IMG/VR virus record: IMGVR_UViG_3300023174_000731
Span: 1 to 20,996 of that record
DNA length: 20,996 bases
Direction: 5' to 3' (one strand)
Source: a virus
In this document: positions 3,889 through 14,239 of the stretch, in pieces
Layout of the letters: each line of letters opens with the position of its first letter
How positions within the stretch are numbered: the stretch's first letter is position 1
Program-made: the position numbers and the translations under genes
Notes under the pieces: generated by a model
The model's database searches: none
What the model saw: only the letters and a program-made list of their open reading frames with translations
Told to the model about the DNA's origin: nothing

Positions 3889-3930
3889 TAATTAAAAATT
3901 TGTATTAACAATAACAACAATAAGGTGAAC

Positions 3931-5721
3931 ATGGAATATCTAGGGATTAACATAGATTTAGAGAGAGATAAATTATTCGATGAACTTGGAATTAAAAGAC
4001 TTAAAGAAAGCTACATGAAGGAAGATGAAGAATCACCACAACATAGATTCGCATTCGTATCAAAATCGTTTAGTTCCAATCCGGAACACGCACAGAGATT
4101 ATACGACTACTCTAGCAAACATTGGCTGTCTTATTCTACTCCCATTCTTTCTTTTGGTCGCAGTAAGCGTGGGATGCCTATATCATGTTTTCTTAATTAT
4201 ATTGAAGATACTGCGGAGGGACTAGTTGATAATCTATCAGAAACTAATTGGCTTTCTATGCTCGGGGGTGGTGTTGGTATTGGCTTTGGTATTCGTTCAG
4301 CAGACGATAAATCTACTGGTGTCATGCCTCACCTCAAAATCTATGACGCAAGTTCTTTGGCCTACCGCCAAGGTCGCACTCGCAGGGGCAGTTATGCTGC
4401 TTACCTCAGTATCTCTCATCCGGATATTATCTCTTTCTTAGAGATGCGGAAGCCGACAGGCGATCCCAATGTTCGTTGTTTGAATCTACATCACGGTATT
4501 AATATCACCGATGACTTCATGCAAATCATTGAAACATGTATGCTGGATCCTGAAGCAAAAGATGATTGGGAATTAAAAGATCCACATTCTGGTGAAGTAC
4601 GTGAAGTTGTATCAGCAAAAGAACTCTGGCAAAAAATTCTAGAGCTTCGTATGATGACAGGTGAACCATACATTCATTATATTGATACAAGCAATCGTGA
4701 AATGCCACAATTTCTAAAAAATAAAGGTTTAAAGATTCACCAATCAAATCTTTGTTCTGAAATTATTCTACCCACAAATGAAGAACGAACAGCGGTATGT
4801 TGTTTATCTTCTTTAAACTTGGAGAACTATGATGAATGGAAATCTGAACCACTATTTCTTAAAGACGTTGCCGAAATGCTTGATAACGTCCTTAATTACT
4901 TCATCACTAATGCTCCTGATGCTATTTCTCGTGCAAAGTATAGTGCCGAAAGAGAACGTTCTATTGGTATCGGTGCTCTTGGGTTCCATGCTTATCTACA
5001 GCGTAATGGCATTGCTTTTGAAGGAGTGATGGCTAAAGTTGCAAACAACAGAATATTCAAACATATCAGAGAGGGATTAGATAATGCAAATCTGGAATTG
5101 GGCACCGAAAGAGGTGAAGCTCCTGATGCACTCGGTACTGGTCGTAGGTTTAGTCATGTTATGGCTATTGCTCCCAATGCTTCTTCTTCCATTATCATGG
5201 GCAATACTAGTCCTAGCGTTGAACCTTATCGTGCCAATGCTTATCGCCAAGATACTCTATCGGGTTCTTACTTAAATAAAAATCGTTGGCTAGATGAATT
5301 GATTATTAAACTATCACATGATAAACCAGAAGATTGGTATAATGATGTTTGGTCATCTATTATTGCTAACGATGGTTCGGTTCAACATTTAGATTGGATG
5401 TCTGAACATGATAAAGATGTATTCAAAACATCTATGGAAATTGACCAACGCTGGGTAATTGAATTGGCTTCTGATAGACAACAATACATTGACCAAGCAC
5501 AATCACTCAATTTGTTCTTTAGACCAGATGTTAATTTGAAGTATCTCCATGCTTGTCATTTCCTTGCATGGAAAAAAGGATTGAAAACTCTATACTATTG
5601 TCGTTCTGAGAAAATTGGTAAAGCTGATAAAGTCGCCAAAAAGATTGAAAGAGAAGTGATTAAAGAATTAGATATGAGTGCTATTGCACAAGGCAACGAA
5701 TGTTTGGCTTGCGAAGGTTAA
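3931..5721 (+). CDS. nrdA: Ribonucleoside-diphosphate reductase class Ia, large subunit
   Basis: 596 residues from the ATG at 3931 (AAGG at 3922-3925, 5-base spacing); an upstream GTG at 3925 would sit inside that site. It reduces NDPs to dNDPs with NrdB. Active-site residues are in place: N273, C275 and E277 in QSNLCSEI; the redox pair C86 (PISCFLNY) and C290 (AVCCLSSLNL); the radical-transfer tyrosines Y555-Y556 (LKTLYYCR); and a C-terminal shuttle pair C591/C594 in ECLACEG. Compared with E. coli NrdA (about 760 residues), the N-terminal ATP-cone is absent, so dATP activity inhibition through that domain should be missing; substrate-specificity regulation may remain. nrdB follows after 18 bases. 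Confidence 0.96.
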   Translation: MEYLGINIDLERDKLFDELGIKRLKESYMKEDEESPQHRFAFVSKSFSSNPEHAQRLYDYSSKHWLSYSTPILSFGRSKRGMPISCFLNYIEDTAEGLVDNLSETNWLSMLGGGVGIGFGIRSADDKSTGVMPHLKIYDASSLAYRQGRTRRGSYAAYLSISHPDIISFLEMRKPTGDPNVRCLNLHHGINITDDFMQIIETCMLDPEAKDDWELKDPHSGEVREVVSAKELWQKILELRMMTGEPYIHYIDTSNREMPQFLKNKGLKIHQSNLCSEIILPTNEERTAVCCLSSLNLENYDEWKSEPLFLKDVAEMLDNVLNYFITNAPDAISRAKYSAERERSIGIGALGFHAYLQRNGIAFEGVMAKVANNRIFKHIREGLDNANLELGTERGEAPDALGTGRRFSHVMAIAPNASSSIIMGNTSPSVEPYRANAYRQDTLSGSYLNKNRWLDELIIKLSHDKPEDWYNDVWSSIIANDGSVQHLDWMSEHDKDVFKTSMEIDQRWVIELASDRQQYIDQAQSLNLFFRPDVNLKYLHACHFLAWKKGLKTLYYCRSEKIGKADKVAKKIEREVIKELDMSAIAQGNECLACEG

Positions 5722-5739
5722 TTTTAAAGGAAAACAATA

Positions 5740-6726
5740 ATGATAAAAAAAGTAGAATCAAATCTTTCGGAAGAACGCAATTATTTTAAACCTTTTAATT
5801 ATCCTTGGGCATATGAAGCTTGGTTAAAGCATGAACAATCTCATTGGTTACACACCGAAGTTCCTATGTCTGAAGATGTGAAAGATTGGAAGAAAAAATT
5901 ATCTAAAGAAGAAAAAACATTTTTAACACAAATATTTCGTTTCTTTACTCAAGGTGATATTGATGTGGCTGGCGGATACGTTAAGAATTATCTGCCGTAT
6001 TTTCCACAACCAGAAATTCGTATGATGTTAACAGGATTCGCTGCCAGAGAAGCATTACATATTGCAGCTTACTCACACCTTATTGAAACACTAGGTCTAC
6101 CTGAAACCACGTACAATGAGTTCCTAGAGTATGAAGCGATGAGAGAGAAACATGACTATATCATGGATATCTCCAGTAAAAATACCACAAGAGAAAATAC
6201 CGCAACACATATTGCCGTGTTCTCGGCCTTTACCGAAGGTATGCAGTTATTCAGTTCATTTATTATGTTATTGAATTTTGCTCGACACGGTAAAATGAAA
6301 GGCATGGGTCAGATTATCACATGGTCGATTGTTGATGAAACTCAACACGCAGAATCTATGATTAAATTGTTTAGAACATACATAGAAGAAAATCGTGAAA
6401 TTTGGAATGATGAACTTAAATCCAAAATCTATACGATTGCTGAAAGAATGGTTCAATTAGAAGATAAGTTTATTGATTTAGCATTTGGTGTAAATCAAAT
6501 GGAAGGTTTATCTTCAGAAGATGTTAAAAAATATATTCGTTATATTGCAGACCGCCGATTGATCTCTTTAGGACTCAAAGGTGTGTTTAAAGTGAAAAAG
6601 AATCCTTTACCATGGGTAGAGGAAATGATTAACGCACCAACACATACCAATTTCTTTGAGAACCGTGCTACCGATTATGCAAAAGGGGCTTTGTCGGGAA
6701 ATTGGGGTGATGTATGGGCTCATTAA
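5740..6726 (+). CDS. nrdB: Ribonucleoside-diphosphate reductase class Ia, small subunit
   Basis: 328 residues, preceded by AAAGGAAA. It carries the diiron centre and tyrosyl radical used by NrdA. By spacing against E. coli NrdB the ligands are D73 (in GDIDVAGGY), E104 and H107 (AAREALHIAAY), E166 (FTEGMQ), and E200 and H203 (VDETQHAES). Y111, four residues after H107, matches the radical tyrosine, so this is a normal class Ia/Ib type subunit rather than an R2c (Tyr-less) form. It is full length. It lies directly downstream of nrdA and is presumably co-transcribed with it. Confidence 0.96.
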   Translation: MIKKVESNLSEERNYFKPFNYPWAYEAWLKHEQSHWLHTEVPMSEDVKDWKKKLSKEEKTFLTQIFRFFTQGDIDVAGGYVKNYLPYFPQPEIRMMLTGFAAREALHIAAYSHLIETLGLPETTYNEFLEYEAMREKHDYIMDISSKNTTRENTATHIAVFSAFTEGMQLFSSFIMLLNFARHGKMKGMGQIITWSIVDETQHAESMIKLFRTYIEENREIWNDELKSKIYTIAERMVQLEDKFIDLAFGVNQMEGLSSEDVKKYIRYIADRRLISLGLKGVFKVKKNPLPWVEEMINAPTHTNFFENRATDYAKGALSGNWGDVWAH

Positions 6727-7703: not shown

Positions 7704-8549
7704 ATGATTTTAATTGATTTAAACCAAGTTTTACTTGCTGGTCTCATGGCGCAAATTGCCAATCACAAAGGTAAATTGGAAGAAAGTTTAATACGACATA
7801 TGGTATTAAACATCATACGCACTCATGTGAAAAATTTTAAAAATGAGTATGGTGAAGTTATCTTATGTTGCGATAACCGCAAATACTGGCGGAAAGAATT
7901 TTTTCCTTTTTATAAAGCTGGTCGAAAAAAGACAAGAGAAAAATCTGATTTGGATTGGCATCTTATCTTTGATATCCTTGCCAAATTAAAACAAGAACTC
8001 AAAGAAAATTTTCCATACAAAGTAATTGATGTTGAAGGTGCAGAAGCAGATGATATTATTGGCACTTTGGTACCAATATATGCTCCACACCAAAAGATTT
8101 TGATTCTATCAAGTGATGGAGATTTTTTACAATTACAAATGTATGGTAGTAATGTCAAACAATACAACCCATCACAAAAGAAGTATATAAAGTCACACGA
8201 TCCTCTTTTGGAATTGAAAGAGAAGATTATACGTGGAGATAAAGGTGATGGTATACCAAACGTATTCTCTCCATCAGATTGTTTTGTTCGTGACCTACGA
8301 CAAAAGCCAATCACTCAAAAGATTATTGAAAAATACATGACCGAACATTATGGTGATTGGGAAGATGAAAGTGCCAAAATTGGTTTTTCACGTAACCAAA
8401 CATTAATTGACCTTAGAAACATACCGGACGATATTAAAACAAAAATTATAAATACTTATGAAGAAACAAAACCCGCTAAAGGTAAGTTACTTAATTATTT
8501 TATGCAACACAAACTTAAAAATTTAATGGATGTGATAGAGGAATTTTAA
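7704..8549 (+). CDS. rnh: RNase H / 5'-3' exonuclease, T4 Rnh-like (FEN family)
   Basis: 281 residues (T4 RNase H is 305). This flap/5'-nuclease family removes RNA primers from lagging-strand fragments. The acidic metal-site residues are visible: D5 (LIDLNQ), D57 (CCDNRKYWR), E114/D116/D117 (EGAEADDIIG), D138 and D140 (SSDGDF), and D179/D182 (GDKGDGIPN). The CDNRKYWR...FYKAGRK segment is the helical-arch entry typical of the T4 type. It starts about 26 bases after the predicted transcription start, with GAAAG at 7693-7697. The C-terminal part is thinner than in T4 but nothing essential is lost. Confidence 0.92.
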   Translation: MILIDLNQVLLAGLMAQIANHKGKLEESLIRHMVLNIIRTHVKNFKNEYGEVILCCDNRKYWRKEFFPFYKAGRKKTREKSDLDWHLIFDILAKLKQELKENFPYKVIDVEGAEADDIIGTLVPIYAPHQKILILSSDGDFLQLQMYGSNVKQYNPSQKKYIKSHDPLLELKEKIIRGDKGDGIPNVFSPSDCFVRDLRQKPITQKIIEKYMTEHYGDWEDESAKIGFSRNQTLIDLRNIPDDIKTKIINTYEETKPAKGKLLNYFMQHKLKNLMDVIEEF

Positions 8550-8971
8550 TGAAAAATTTATATGAAATATTTGATGAGTTTGAAGTGGCTCCCACTAAAA
8601 AAGAAAAAATGGCGGTAATAGAAAAAAATCTGTCTAAAACATTAGTTCAGGTATTAGAATTAACATATCATCCACAGTATGAGTGGTTAATAAGAGAAAT
8701 GCCGGAAGAATACAAAATTCCAGACACTTTACCTGGAATTTCTAGATGTCAACTGTCAACAGAAATTAGAAAATTGTATTTGTTTAGAAAAGGTGATCCT
8801 ACAGCTGAAAAGTTGTCGGAAGAAAAAAGAAAACAACTGTTATTGCAATTAATTGAATCACTTGAACCTCGTGAAGCAGAAGTAGTTATTGGTATTCTAA
8901 ATAAAAATTTAGGTGTAAAAGGTTTAACTTATAAATTTATTAAAGAAGCTTTTCCACAACTTTTACCATAA
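8549..8971 (+). CDS. DUF6433-type T4-like conserved protein
   Basis: 140 residues, overlapping the RNase H stop by one base, with GAGG at 8538-8541. The pattern matches a family widespread in T4-like phages (named DUF6433 from memory): an N-terminal YEIFDEFEVAPTKKEK block, a central YLFRKGDP, then LESLEPREAEVVIGIL and a C-terminal KGLTYKFIKEAFPQLLP. It is soluble and helical. The function is unknown. Its constant company with replication genes suggests a DNA-related job. Confidence 0.75.
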   Translation: MKNLYEIFDEFEVAPTKKEKMAVIEKNLSKTLVQVLELTYHPQYEWLIREMPEEYKIPDTLPGISRCQLSTEIRKLYLFRKGDPTAEKLSEEKRKQLLLQLIESLEPREAEVVIGILNKNLGVKGLTYKFIKEAFPQLLP

Positions 8972-10402: not shown

Positions 10403-10556
10403 CAATCCGGACTATATTTGGCTTAATGCTATTGCAGATGATGATGAAATTCCTGCGTGGAAACGTTTAGATATCGTAACTCGCAAGTGGGCAGTTTTAT
10501 CGGGAATGGAAAAAGATCACAATGACTACCAAAAACGCAAAGAATATTACCAATAA
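10395..10556 (+). CDS. Small protein, unknown
   Basis: 53 residues from the ATG at 10395, chosen for AAGGA at 10383-10387 with 7-base spacing; the open frame extends upstream only into the previous gene. The N-terminus MDNNPDYIWLNAIADDDEIP is acidic and the C-terminus basic and Tyr-rich (YQKRKEYYQ). No domain recognised. Confidence 0.55.
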   Translation: MDNNPDYIWLNAIADDDEIPAWKRLDIVTRKWAVLSGMEKDHNDYQKRKEYYQ

Positions 10557-10728
10557 AAAATATACCACCACAATCGTTGATGCAAATGATGGTACAGGTG
10601 ATGGTATTTTAATTCTTCCTGAAGAAGTTGTAGAATACAACCATTGGAAAGAAGGCCAAGCAATTGAAATGGAATATAGAGATGGAAAACTCTACCTAAA
10701 AGCCTTACCGGATCAGAGCGTTGTATAA
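10522..10728 (+). CDS. AbrB/MazE-like swapped-hairpin protein
   Basis: 68 residues. The core GDGILILPEEVVEYNHWKEG...IEMEYRDGKLYLK has the layout of SpoVT/AbrB domains: a strand, a Pro, a short helix, then W-x-x-G and paired strands. In bacteria such domains bind operator DNA as dimers, often as antitoxins; short stand-alone versions occur in T4-like phages. It starts 35 bases inside the upstream gene and is followed after 24 bases by the promoter of the HEXXH-VWA gene, so local transcriptional control is conceivable. No toxin partner is evident. Confidence 0.6.
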   Translation: MTTKNAKNITNKKYTTTIVDANDGTGDGILILPEEVVEYNHWKEGQAIEMEYRDGKLYLKALPDQSVV

Positions 10729-10752: not shown

Positions 10753-10781
10753 TTGACGGTAGATGATTTTTGTGAGATAAT
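10753..10781 (+). promoter_or_regulatory. Sigma-70 promoter, extended -10, for the HEXXH-VWA gene
   Basis: TTGACG (10753-10758), 17-base spacer, GATAAT (10776-10781), with TG at 10773-10774 forming an extended -10. The leader to the ATG at 10805 contains CGGAG at 10795-10799. A strong individual promoter for a single large gene is notable here. Confidence 0.7.
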
Positions 10782-10804: not shown

Positions 10805-12916
10805 ATGGAATTAATTCAATCTAAATCATTACTTGCCAAACTAATGGCAAATGAAAACTTGACTATTGAGCAACGCAATACCAACACAGCCGCATTCGAT
10901 GTAAAGAACCGTGTGTTGACCGTTCCTGTTCTTGACAAAAACATCTCAGGTTATCTCTATGACCTTTTTCTAGGTCATGAAGTGGGCCATGCACTATACA
11001 CTCCCCTAGATGGCATGATGAAAGCACACGAAGAAAAGATACCAATGGGTATTATGAATGTGCTAGAAGATTCTCGCATCGAAAGAAAAATCAAAAACAA
11101 ATATCCAGGTATTCGTTCCTCTTTTGTTCGTGGTTACCGTGAACTAATCGAGAAAGATTTCTTTGGCACAAACGGCACGGATCTCAATGATATGAATTTC
11201 ATTGACCGTGTTAATCTTTATACAAAAGGCGGAGCCGCACAAAACATTCGTTTTAATGATTTTGAGAAATCACTAGTTCATCGTATTGAAAATACCGATT
11301 CTTATGATGATGTCATTGCGCTTGCATATGATGTCATGGCTTATATGAAAGAAGAAGCCGAACAGCGCAAAGCAAATGCCCCAGAAGAATTCAAAGAAGA
11401 TCCTGATGGCGAATTTGAATCCGAAGGTTATGAAGATTCCGATGACTATGATGATGAGGATGATACCATCGAAAAATATGGCCAACCAAACTCTGAAGCC
11501 GATGAATTGATGGATAAAGCTGAAGAAAAAAGAACGAATAAAATGTTTGGTAACGAAGGCGGCGATGTTGTTGGTGAACAATTGGATTCACACACCGATA
11601 AATCATATCGCCAAAACGAAAGCAAATTGTTTGAATTAAATAACAAACATTATTACTATGGTAACATTAATGATATTGATTTGAAACAGGCAGTTGTTCC
11701 ATACAAACAATTATGGACAAGTTATAAAGATGATTTAGGTCAATATAACATTTCTGGCATTGATACAACCGCTTTTATGAAAATTCGTAATGATGCTAAA
11801 AAAGTGGTTGGTTATTTGGCCAAAGAATTTGAATTGCGTAAAAATGCCGACCAGCAGAAACGTGCATCAATTTCTAAAACTGGTGAGTTGAACATGAACA
11901 AAGTTTATGCGTATAAATTTACCGAAGATATTTTTAAGAAGATGACAGTTTTGCCTGATGGCAAATCTCACGGCCTTGTTATGTTCCTTGATTGGTCTGG
12001 TTCTATGTCCGACCACATGGAAAATACCGTCAAACAATTAATCAATCTAGTAATGTTCTGTAAGAAAGTAAATATTCCTTACGAAGTATATGCTTTTACA
12101 TCCGAACATACAGATGCTTATTCCGTTAAGTTCAAAGATGGCGATTTAGACTTACATAAATTTAAATTAATGAATTTATTATCAAGCAAAATGTCGGCTT
12201 CAGAATTCACCTATGCCTGTTCTGCTTTGGTTCGTTGTGCTCAACCTAGAGCTTGTCGTCCAAACTGGATGCAATTAGGTGGCACACCACTCTATGAGGC
12301 CGTAATTGCTGCAATGAAGATTATACCTGAGTTCCAGAAAAATTACAAATTGCAAATCGTTAATACGGTATTTTTAACCGATGGCGAAGGCAATCCTGTA
12401 AGAAATGTTTATTATACAGCTGATGATGGCCGCACAAGATCAGGTTATAATAATCCAGATTTGGATTATAATAGTTCATATGGTAAAGAAAAGGTACTGG
12501 TGATTCGTGATCCAATTACTAAACACGAAGAAAAAGTTTATCAACCATATGGTCCAGAATTGATGTCAGCTTACATTAAAATGTTAAAGGCAAGAACACA
12601 ATGTAATGTTATTGGTTTCTATGTATTATCTGGTCGTGAGTTTGGCCGTGTGGCACACATATTCTATCCTAGAGTTAGTGACCATTACAAATTGAAAGCC
12701 GAGTTCCGTAAAGAAAAATATAAAGTTGTTACAAATGCCGGTTTCGATGAATATTATTTACTCCGTTCAGAAGGCCTAGATACTGATGACGATGTAGAAT
12801 TTCATGTCAAAGAAAATGCTACTACTCGTGGTCTGGTATCGGCATTCAGTAAATATGCCGGTAACAGATTGTCCAATCGTGTTGTACTAAATCGATTTAT
12901 AGGAATGATTGCATAA
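10805..12916 (+). CDS. HEXXH metallopeptidase-like + VWA domain protein (CobT-like)
   Basis: 703 residues, the largest gene here. The N-terminal domain has H58-E59-V-G-H62 in FLGHEVGHALYTP and downstream acidic residues E88 and E93 in NVLEDSRIERK, a gluzincin-like zinc site. Residues about 190-245 form a long acidic, probably disordered linker. The C-terminal half is a von Willebrand A domain with a complete MIDAS: D396-W-S398-G-S400 (FLDWSGSM), T494 (LGGTPLYEA) and D526 (FLTDGEG). The VWA part recalls CobT of the CobN-CobST cobaltochelatase, and T4-like phages of aquatic bacteria often carry a CobS-like AAA+ ATPase that could be its partner; none lies in this window. Peptidase activity and targets are inferred. 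It has its own promoter. Confidence 0.85.
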   Translation: MELIQSKSLLAKLMANENLTIEQRNTNTAAFDVKNRVLTVPVLDKNISGYLYDLFLGHEVGHALYTPLDGMMKAHEEKIPMGIMNVLEDSRIERKIKNKYPGIRSSFVRGYRELIEKDFFGTNGTDLNDMNFIDRVNLYTKGGAAQNIRFNDFEKSLVHRIENTDSYDDVIALAYDVMAYMKEEAEQRKANAPEEFKEDPDGEFESEGYEDSDDYDDEDDTIEKYGQPNSEADELMDKAEEKRTNKMFGNEGGDVVGEQLDSHTDKSYRQNESKLFELNNKHYYYGNINDIDLKQAVVPYKQLWTSYKDDLGQYNISGIDTTAFMKIRNDAKKVVGYLAKEFELRKNADQQKRASISKTGELNMNKVYAYKFTEDIFKKMTVLPDGKSHGLVMFLDWSGSMSDHMENTVKQLINLVMFCKKVNIPYEVYAFTSEHTDAYSVKFKDGDLDLHKFKLMNLLSSKMSASEFTYACSALVRCAQPRACRPNWMQLGGTPLYEAVIAAMKIIPEFQKNYKLQIVNTVFLTDGEGNPVRNVYYTADDGRTRSGYNNPDLDYNSSYGKEKVLVIRDPITKHEEKVYQPYGPELMSAYIKMLKARTQCNVIGFYVLSGREFGRVAHIFYPRVSDHYKLKAEFRKEKYKVVTNAGFDEYYLLRSEGLDTDDDVEFHVKENATTRGLVSAFSKYAGNRLSNRVVLNRFIGMIA

Positions 12917-13128
12917 TGGAACTATCTAAATTTATGAATGGCGATAAAAAAGCCATTGTCGAAAGGTCTGATTATAATTACACAATTGTTTATTATTTAA
13001 ATAATAAAGTAATTAAAAAAGAAGTTATTACTGATTATCAGAAAGCTGAAGATTTGGCAGAAGATTATGTTTTGGCCGAAGAAAAAAAAGGCCCAAATTT
13101 TTTAGTGGAGAAATGGAACAATGTCTAA
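12916..13128 (+). CDS. Small protein downstream of the HEXXH-VWA gene
   Basis: 70 residues, starting in a TAATG overlap with the large gene, so it is probably translated with it. The sequence alternates charged and aromatic residues (YNYTIVYYLNNKVIKKEV), suggesting a small beta sheet followed by an acidic helix (YQKAEDLAEDYVLAEEK). No named family. Tight coupling makes it a possible accessory of the VWA protein. Confidence 0.6.
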   Translation: MELSKFMNGDKKAIVERSDYNYTIVYYLNNKVIKKEVITDYQKAEDLAEDYVLAEEKKGPNFLVEKWNNV

Positions 13129-13387
13129 TATGATTGCTGAGGATGAGTTTAATCCTAAAAAAATTGCTGATGAAATGATTAAACGTTGTCTTGATGCCAG
13201 AGAATGGCACATTAAGTGTTACGTTAAAGAAGAATGGTTTATTAATGGCATTGTACCTTTTACAATTAGTATGAAAGATGGATTGTATACTTGTAAGGTG
13301 ATTGCATCAACTAGACAAGATGCAATTCGCAAAGTGGAAGAATACATGCCTGTTATTAAAATTATAGAAGATGAATGTGGAAAATAA
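13121..13387 (+). CDS. Small protein, unknown
   Basis: 88 residues, overlapping the previous gene by 8 bases, with GGAG at 13107-13110. It has an N-terminal helix (KKIADEMIKRCLDAREWH), then strands (WHIKCYVKEEWFI, FTISMKDGLYTCKVIAS), then a helix with RQDAIRKVEEYMP. The layout is like a double-stranded beta/helix mini-domain. I recognise no family. It is co-translated with its neighbours. Confidence 0.6.
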   Translation: MSNMIAEDEFNPKKIADEMIKRCLDAREWHIKCYVKEEWFINGIVPFTISMKDGLYTCKVIASTRQDAIRKVEEYMPVIKIIEDECGK

Positions 13388-13788: not shown

Positions 13789-13995
13789 ATGCTAGAATAC
13801 TTCAAACTTTGCCTCTTTATCGTTGCCTTTACAATGGTCTATGCCTTTGTATCGAATGATGATTACCATAAAAAGTTTGACAAACCTATTGTTATCGAGT
13901 ATAATTGTAGTATGTTAAAATATGAAACACCAAAAGACGTAATTGATTTGTGTAAAGATACCAACAGGAGATTTGTAATTGTTAAAACCTATTAA
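13789..13995 (+). CDS. Small protein with N-terminal membrane segment
   Basis: 68 residues. Residues about 5-21 (FKLCLFIVAFTMVYAFV) form a membrane span or signal anchor. They are followed by a polar domain with two cysteines (in YNCSML and DLCKDT) that would be periplasmic if the N-terminus stays inside. GAGG lies only one base before the ATG, so the true start might differ slightly. It overlaps the GroES-like gene by 17 bases. Function unknown. Confidence 0.55.
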   Translation: MLEYFKLCLFIVAFTMVYAFVSNDDYHKKFDKPIVIEYNCSMLKYETPKDVIDLCKDTNRRFVIVKTY

Positions 13996-14239
13996 AAATA
14001 ATGTAATCGTTGAACTGATTGAAAAAGAAAAGGTTACCAGTTCTGGTATCGTTCTTTCATCAGCCGATCCGGCAGAAGCCAATAAAAGTAAAATTGTATC
14101 CGTAGGTCCTGATGTTGACCTAGTTAAAGAAGGTGACATAGTGTTACCTAACTGGAATGCTGCACGTCAAATCAAATATAATGATTCTGAATATTATGTT
14201 GTTTCGGAAGATGAAATTGTTTTAATTTTTGGTGATTAA
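13979..14239 (+). CDS. GroES-like co-chaperonin (gp31 functional analogue)
   Basis: 86 residues, close to bacterial GroES (about 97). The start is a TTG at 13979, supported by AGGAG at 13966-13970 with 8-base spacing; there is no in-frame ATG nearby. It opens LKPIKNNVIVELIEKEK, then the mobile-loop motif SSGIVLSSADPAEANKS (GroES has GGIVL), then KIVSVGPDV and EGDIVLPNWNAARQI, and ends with EYYVVSEDEIVLIFGD. The family caps GroEL. In T4, gp31 replaces GroES to fold the major capsid protein, and this gene probably does the same with host GroEL. The rare start codon may limit its level. Confidence 0.88.
   Translation: MLKPIKNNVIVELIEKEKVTSSGIVLSSADPAEANKSKIVSVGPDVDLVKEGDIVLPNWNAARQIKYNDSEYYVVSEDEIVLIFGD

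Follow-up and report, generated by a model that had tools for sequence, protein, structure and literature searches.

The window analysed here is an entire virus record of 20,996 bases, in which a plus-strand open reading frame (10805-12916), read from an ATG, encodes a protein of 703 residues with a zinc-protease-like head and a metal-binding VWA domain (Table 1). The genes in its vicinity are of the T4-like phage type, i.e. a primase, both subunits of ribonucleotide reductase and an exonuclease/RNase H, and the window also encodes an endolysin, a Cpn10-like co-chaperonin and a MazG-like protein. When the sequence was read again, the reading frame, its coordinates and all of the residues named in a first-pass annotation of this DNA were found to be correct.

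Table 1. Features of the VWA gene and its immediate flanks; positions are those of the window.
Feature	Position	Strand	Basis or comment
Sigma-70-type promoter, TTGACG-17-(TGA)GATAAT, extended -10	10753..10781	+	Consensus and conservation
Zincin-like and VWA protein, CobT-like	10805..12916	+	PHROG 459 match
N-terminal zincin-like domain, residues 8-191	10826..11377	+	AlphaFold2 model, pLDDT ~80-92 over most of the domain
HEVGH, residues 58-62	10976..10990	+	Predicted zinc ligands H58 and H62; predicted general base E59
N85-V-L-E88-D89-S-R91-I-E93	11057..11083	+	E88 is the predicted third zinc ligand; the rest are supporting residues
Acidic flexible linker, residues 195-257	11387..11575	+	pLDDT <50, predicted disordered
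Long helix, residues 321-359	11765..11881	+	DSSP of the model; candidate pore-entering element
VWA domain with complete MIDAS, residues 386-703	11960..12913	+	Structure matches and residue conservation
70-residue small protein	12916..13128	+	Overlaps the stop codon of the VWA gene (TAATG)

The type of protein, a zinc-protease-like head joined to a metal-binding VWA domain, is already known and is widespread in T4-like phages of water, and the same architecture has previously been described for jumbo phages (PMC7824862). The PHROG 459 "peptidase" profile covers residues 5-703, i.e. the full length of the present protein (E 1.3e-196). Relatives are present in 463 GenBank phage records, nearly all of them of marine cyanophages and all less than 60% identical; the closest relatives, at 82-93% identity, are fragments from uncultivated phages. 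Searches of the 703-residue protein against Pfam and NCBIfam gave no usable family match, leaving unsupported its assignment to the DUF2201-type metallopeptidase-VWA proteins, which we take to be analogues. A known defence system was also dropped as a description, PADLOC giving no match for the VWA proteins and marginal ones only for two ATPases.

In the AlphaFold2 model of the protein (67-sequence alignment, mean pLDDT 79.8) the N-terminal domain has strands at residues 20-24, 30-32 and 37-41, then helices at 49-65 and 81-99; the order of three strands, an HExxH helix and a Glu helix is that of small zincins. HExxH lies inside the confident first helix and E88 inside the later one, i.e. sequence, conservation and model agree on the gluzincin-type arrangement of HExxH in a helix with a Glu ligand downstream. 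Among 92 non-redundant relatives (pairwise identity <75%), H58, H62, N85, E88, D89 and R91 are each kept in 91, position 93 is E or D in 91, and E59 is kept in all 92; the sole exception at the zinc site is a relative (L068) the first 250 residues of which have no match to the query. When the protein is shuffled, HExxH alone appears in 1.8% of the copies, and HExxH followed by N..ED.R in none of 20,000; more weight attaches to conservation as a test of the site. Judged by conservation and secondary structure, the zinc-protease-like site proposed by the first-pass annotation is intact.

Searches with the N-terminal domain matched none of the Pfam peptidase families and found no solved chain in the PDB by sequence, and a structure search with the whole model had no zincin among the matches listed, the VWA domain having filled that list. 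In zinc peptidases the Glu of HExxH does not bind the zinc but acts as the general base. A zinc site with a structural role alone could do without E59, and it is mainly from the invariance of this residue that we infer the site to be catalytic and the domain to be a putative active zinc peptidase. We know of no report of cleavage by such phage proteins, nor of a substrate for them.

The long acidic linker that had been described after the N-terminal domain is borne out, residues 195-257 being predicted to be disordered, as is the VWA domain with its complete MIDAS: D396-W-S-G-S400, T494 and D526 are all in place, with D396, S398, S400 and D526 kept in all 92 non-redundant relatives and T494 in 90. 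The best structural match of residues 283-703, which comprise the VWA domain and a helical extension, is NorD in its complex with NorQ (Z 15.8, 250 residues), and the second match of the VWA part is the Midasin MIDAS (Z 15.2). The complete MIDAS and the structural match to the VWA domains of MoxR partners place the protein with the MoxR AAA+/VWA pairs. In this regard, the earlier view that the domain is of the ATPase-partner type holds, since it is NorD-like with a helical extension, the type that plugs the MoxR ring. The helix at residues 321-359 falls within the NorD-aligned part, the match to which begins at residue 283, and by analogy may be the counterpart of the NorD finger.

The gene has a promoter, TTGACG-17-TGAGATAAT (10753-10781), ~24 bases upstream, with 10 of 12 consensus matches and a TG. 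Promoter-like sites of this kind show no excess in the region, where 13 were counted and chance alone would give 13.8. The position and hexamers recur, with -10 variants, in 31 of the 32 relatives examined, the other (L078) keeping the -10 only, and the promoter is conserved down to ~57% protein identity; it is through this conservation that the gene's own extended -10 promoter, as first annotated, is substantiated. The translationally coupled partner of 70 residues that had also been put forward fares less well. Its overlap with the stop codon of the VWA gene (TAATG) is real, and copies that are 60-89% identical are found in 19 of 24 close relatives; direct coupling is seen in 12 of these 19, the copies in the remainder being displaced by another small ORF, and in six of the 24 relatives the intervening small ORF is itself coupled. 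Because coupling varies in this way among relatives, the 70-residue ORF is a weak candidate for a dedicated partner. By eye, this ORF and the next one, of 88 residues (together 12916-13387, +), could be taken for divergent versions of a single small fold, and both resemble an ORF of 47 residues that occupies the corresponding position in Synechococcus phage QB2 (L039:10118-10261). Just upstream of the VWA gene, a 68-residue protein (10522-10728, +) shows weak similarity to antitoxins of the MazE/AbrB type (PF04014, E 3e-4, below the cut-off) and also matches phrog_661; no toxin was recognised beside it.

No AAA_5 ATPase gene is present in the window. This is to be expected, because merely 8,080 bases follow the VWA gene; in three close relatives represented by longer contigs (G001, G002 and G005) a CobS-like AAA+ gene lies on the same strand ~11 kb downstream, the gap between the two genes being 10,921 bases in one and similar, by coordinates, in the other two. 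At 69 related loci a CobS/MoxR-type AAA+ gene is within 2.2 kb of the VWA gene, and at 64 of these it is downstream on the same strand. Three loci (L133, L143 and L145) go against the usual order, with the CobS-like gene upstream (672 bases) and on the opposite strand. Thus, a CobS/MoxR-type AAA+ partner of the kind that the first-pass annotation had envisaged is present in relatives, including close kin, at positions outside the window, and the 703-residue protein very probably has a ring-forming ATPase as its partner.

The surroundings of the pair point to replication and recombination. In annotated cyanophages and in an Ochrobactrum T4-like phage the gene order is gp55, gp47, gp46, VWA protein, CobS, gp45, gp44, i.e. 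in marine T4-like phages the VWA/CobS pair is flanked by the recombination nuclease (gp46/47) on one side and by the sliding clamp (gp45) on the other. The HExxH-VWA type is also carried by 2,329 of 72,556 plasmid records, 1,928 of which are predicted to be conjugative. SXT/R391-like, IncC and IncHI2 elements (L207, L208 and L209) have it with AAA+ and DUF3150 genes nearby, and in the SXT/R391-like element and the IncC plasmid the gene adjoins ssb, bet and exo; in one E. coli phage and one Rhizobium phage it is beside CobS, with DNA polymerase III alpha in the same stretch. Deletion of bet, exo, s067, s068 or s070, SXT genes that are considered here by name only, reduces SXT transfer by at most 10-fold (PMC2791158). 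Given the gp46/47-gp45 setting and the plasmid relatives beside ssb, bet and exo, it is in a replication/recombination complex that a substrate should be sought first. This neighbourhood is a lead and no proof, and the argument from it is weaker in the window's own lineage, the two genes being far apart there. As to the host complex that had been suggested as the target, nothing found names a substrate.

The same surroundings bear on the proposal, made for group 2.2 jumbo phages, that such a MoxR-VWA pair is a chaperone for assembly of the phage particle, in which the peptidase would trim structural proteins (PMC7824862). The architecture described there is identical in kind, and a MoxR-VWA pair is, according to a citation in that paper, needed for tail assembly in an archaeal two-tailed virus. 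However, the present gene sits with primase, ribonucleotide reductase and exonuclease, and its relatives with gp46/47 and gp45, with no head or tail genes alongside; its promoter is sigma-70-like rather than late-type; 6 of 10 records encode a member of the T4 prohead protease family separately; and relatives are also carried by plasmids and integrative elements, for which there is no particle to assemble. A role in particle assembly is, on balance, improbable.

Two names are in use for the protein. In the study just cited, Iyer and others describe a MoxR-vWA pair in group 2.2 jumbo phages, the vWA of which is fused to a metallopeptidase domain (PMC7824862), and the same gene has elsewhere been called a mis-annotated CobT (PMC8651126); comparison of the N-terminal domains suggests that both saw one thing. 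Over 175 columns the phage domain is homologous (E 2.5e-16) to that of a family of HExxH-VWA proteins encoded on chromosomes and plasmids, and this family is in turn homologous to the CobT N-terminal domain (hhalign E 1.8e-7, 134 columns), its members matching the TIGR01651 CobT model (E 4.5e-10). Since direct hhalign comparison of the phage and CobT domains is weak (probability 7%), the link between them stands only via the chromosomal/plasmid proteins.

This homology, which is real through the intermediates, favours the published proposal that the protein is a true CobT, which with the phage CobS would recruit host CobN to form a cobalt chelatase and so give more vitamin B12 (PMC8651126); that CobS is the best family match of the partner ATPase also favours it. 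The match, however, is of only 63-95 bits, against a TIGR01650 equivalog cut-off of 558.55, and the 703-residue protein itself has no match to the CobT models TIGR01651 and PF06213/PF11775. HExxH is in none of 31 cellular CobT proteins from bacterial genomes and in essentially all of the phage ones; which CobT column corresponds to it is ambiguous, inspection by eye pointing to H[DN]xxxH and hhalign to D[AS]xAL, and HExxH is found in neither. No CobN (PF02514) was found in 10 large phage records, and the window carries genes for a ribonucleotide reductase of its own, one for the large and one for the small subunit (3925-6726, +); an enzyme with a separate small subunit is class I and B12-independent. 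Relatives occur, moreover, in phages of E. coli and V. cholerae and on E. coli plasmids, and these hosts to our knowledge lack an aerobic CobN route. With no CobT-model match, no CobN in the 10 phage records and a phage-encoded ribonucleotide reductase, the peptidase label is not simply mistaken and the B12 label is the weaker of the two. The intact predicted protease site likewise argues against the usual label of a vitamin B12 enzyme, and that the protein is a true CobT seems very unlikely.

The extent to which the zinc site is retained across more distant proteins is informative as to catalysis. HExxH is intact in all eight divergent members examined, which are from a Salmonella island, from Roseobacter, Rhizobium, E. 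coli and Vibrio phages, from an SXT/R391-like element and from IncC and IncHI2 plasmids. Six CbbO-type cellular proteins (L154, L156-L159 and L161) keep both histidines and the ED pair and have lost the general base; their motifs, HMxxH, HTAAH or HCAAH and then EDxR, resemble the peptidase site without that residue, and catalysis appears to have been lost from their N-terminal domains. The N-terminal domains of NorD and CbbO have been called unrelated in the NorQ/NorD paper (PMC13036017). It may be that the phage protein, too, belongs to a remodelling machine without peptidase activity, in which the zinc site is structural and the N-terminal domain merely anchors the target, as proposed for NorD. 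The CbbO-type proteins imply that the domain can serve without catalysis, and the NorD domain is proposed to be a target binder; yet the general base is present in every one of the phage relatives compared and in all of the divergent mobile-element members, which makes a purely structural site a rather unlikely explanation.

The full best explanation, to which we assign a probability of roughly 0.6, is that of an ATPase-driven remodelling protease of the MoxR AAA+/VWA machine type, the gene product being its substrate-handling subunit. Six copies of the CobS-like ATPase, the gene for which is ~11 kb downstream in close relatives, would assemble into a ring, with part of the VWA domain inserted in its pore and the target bound at the MIDAS metal site. 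ATP hydrolysis would twist or pull the target across the flexible linker, and the N-terminal HExxH...E zinc peptidase would then cut the strained target. The ring, the pore insertion and the twisting are by analogy with NorQ-NorD, where the VWA protein inserts a finger into the ring pore and, according to the published proposal, rotation powered by ATP stretches the linker and opens up the target (PMC13036017); the cutting step is suggested solely by conservation. The overall interpretation of the first-pass annotation is thus upheld for the AAA+ partner, the type of VWA domain and the zinc site, and not for the host target, with the small coupled protein weak.

Several known systems resemble the protein in part. 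The group 2.2 jumbo-phage pair (PMC7824862), likened by architecture, shares the N-terminal metallopeptidase-vWA fusion and the MoxR AAA+ gene partner, but is filed under particle assembly, whereas the present gene is on a freshwater T4-like fragment in a replication context and, in close kin, is ~11 kb from its partner. Members of PHROG 459 / T4-GC 146 of cyanomyoviruses match over the full length with identical sites and are CobS-adjacent in marine phages; by contrast, CobS is apart in the window's lineage, and identity to the marine members is mostly 30-40%. CobT (TIGR01651, PF06213, PDB 9uka) has the same layout of N-terminal domain, acidic linker and VWA, a CobS-type partner and distant homology in the N-terminal domain, but the cellular protein lacks HExxH and needs CobN, and the 703-residue protein fails both CobT models. 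NorD/NorQ (PDB 9qh6, 9qhd; PMC13036017) provides the closest solved VWA, a similar layout with a disordered linker and a MoxR-type partner; NorD, however, inserts iron into nitric oxide reductase, and the N-terminal domains are likened by layout alone. The HExxH-VWA proteins of SXT/R391-like, IncC and IncHI2 elements have an intact HExxH, a VWA with D.S.S, an AAA+ gene nearby and demonstrated homology in the N-terminal domain, and differ in that an extra DUF3150 gene lies between ATPase and VWA and that the elements are conjugative. CbbO-type proteins beside CbbQ-like ATPases have an H-x-x-x-H...EDxR block followed by a VWA, but with the general base replaced, so that they are probably not peptidases; the name CbbO rests on length and layout only.

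The assignment matters because marine T4-like cyanophages have cobS among their core genes, and viral ecology routinely lists it, together with cobT, as an auxiliary gene for vitamin B12. Should the partner be a zinc protease driven by an ATPase, the B12 reading of this very common pair of phage genes would not hold, and the link to CobT and the CbbO-type proteins would explain the origin of the N-terminal domains in such machines. More tentatively, and with the odds somewhat against it, phages and conjugative elements may share a class of ATP-driven HExxH-VWA protease that acts on replication/recombination complexes, the marine 'cobST' pair included, with the N-terminal domains of CobT and CbbO-type proteins being a worn-out peptidase.

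Two further genes of the window may be recorded. The co-chaperonin is a Cpn10/gp31-like protein of 86 residues (13979-14239, +; PF00166, E 1.6e-14), and a 140-residue protein (8549-8971, +) matches DUF6433 and, weakly, the N terminus of ATP-dependent DNA ligase.
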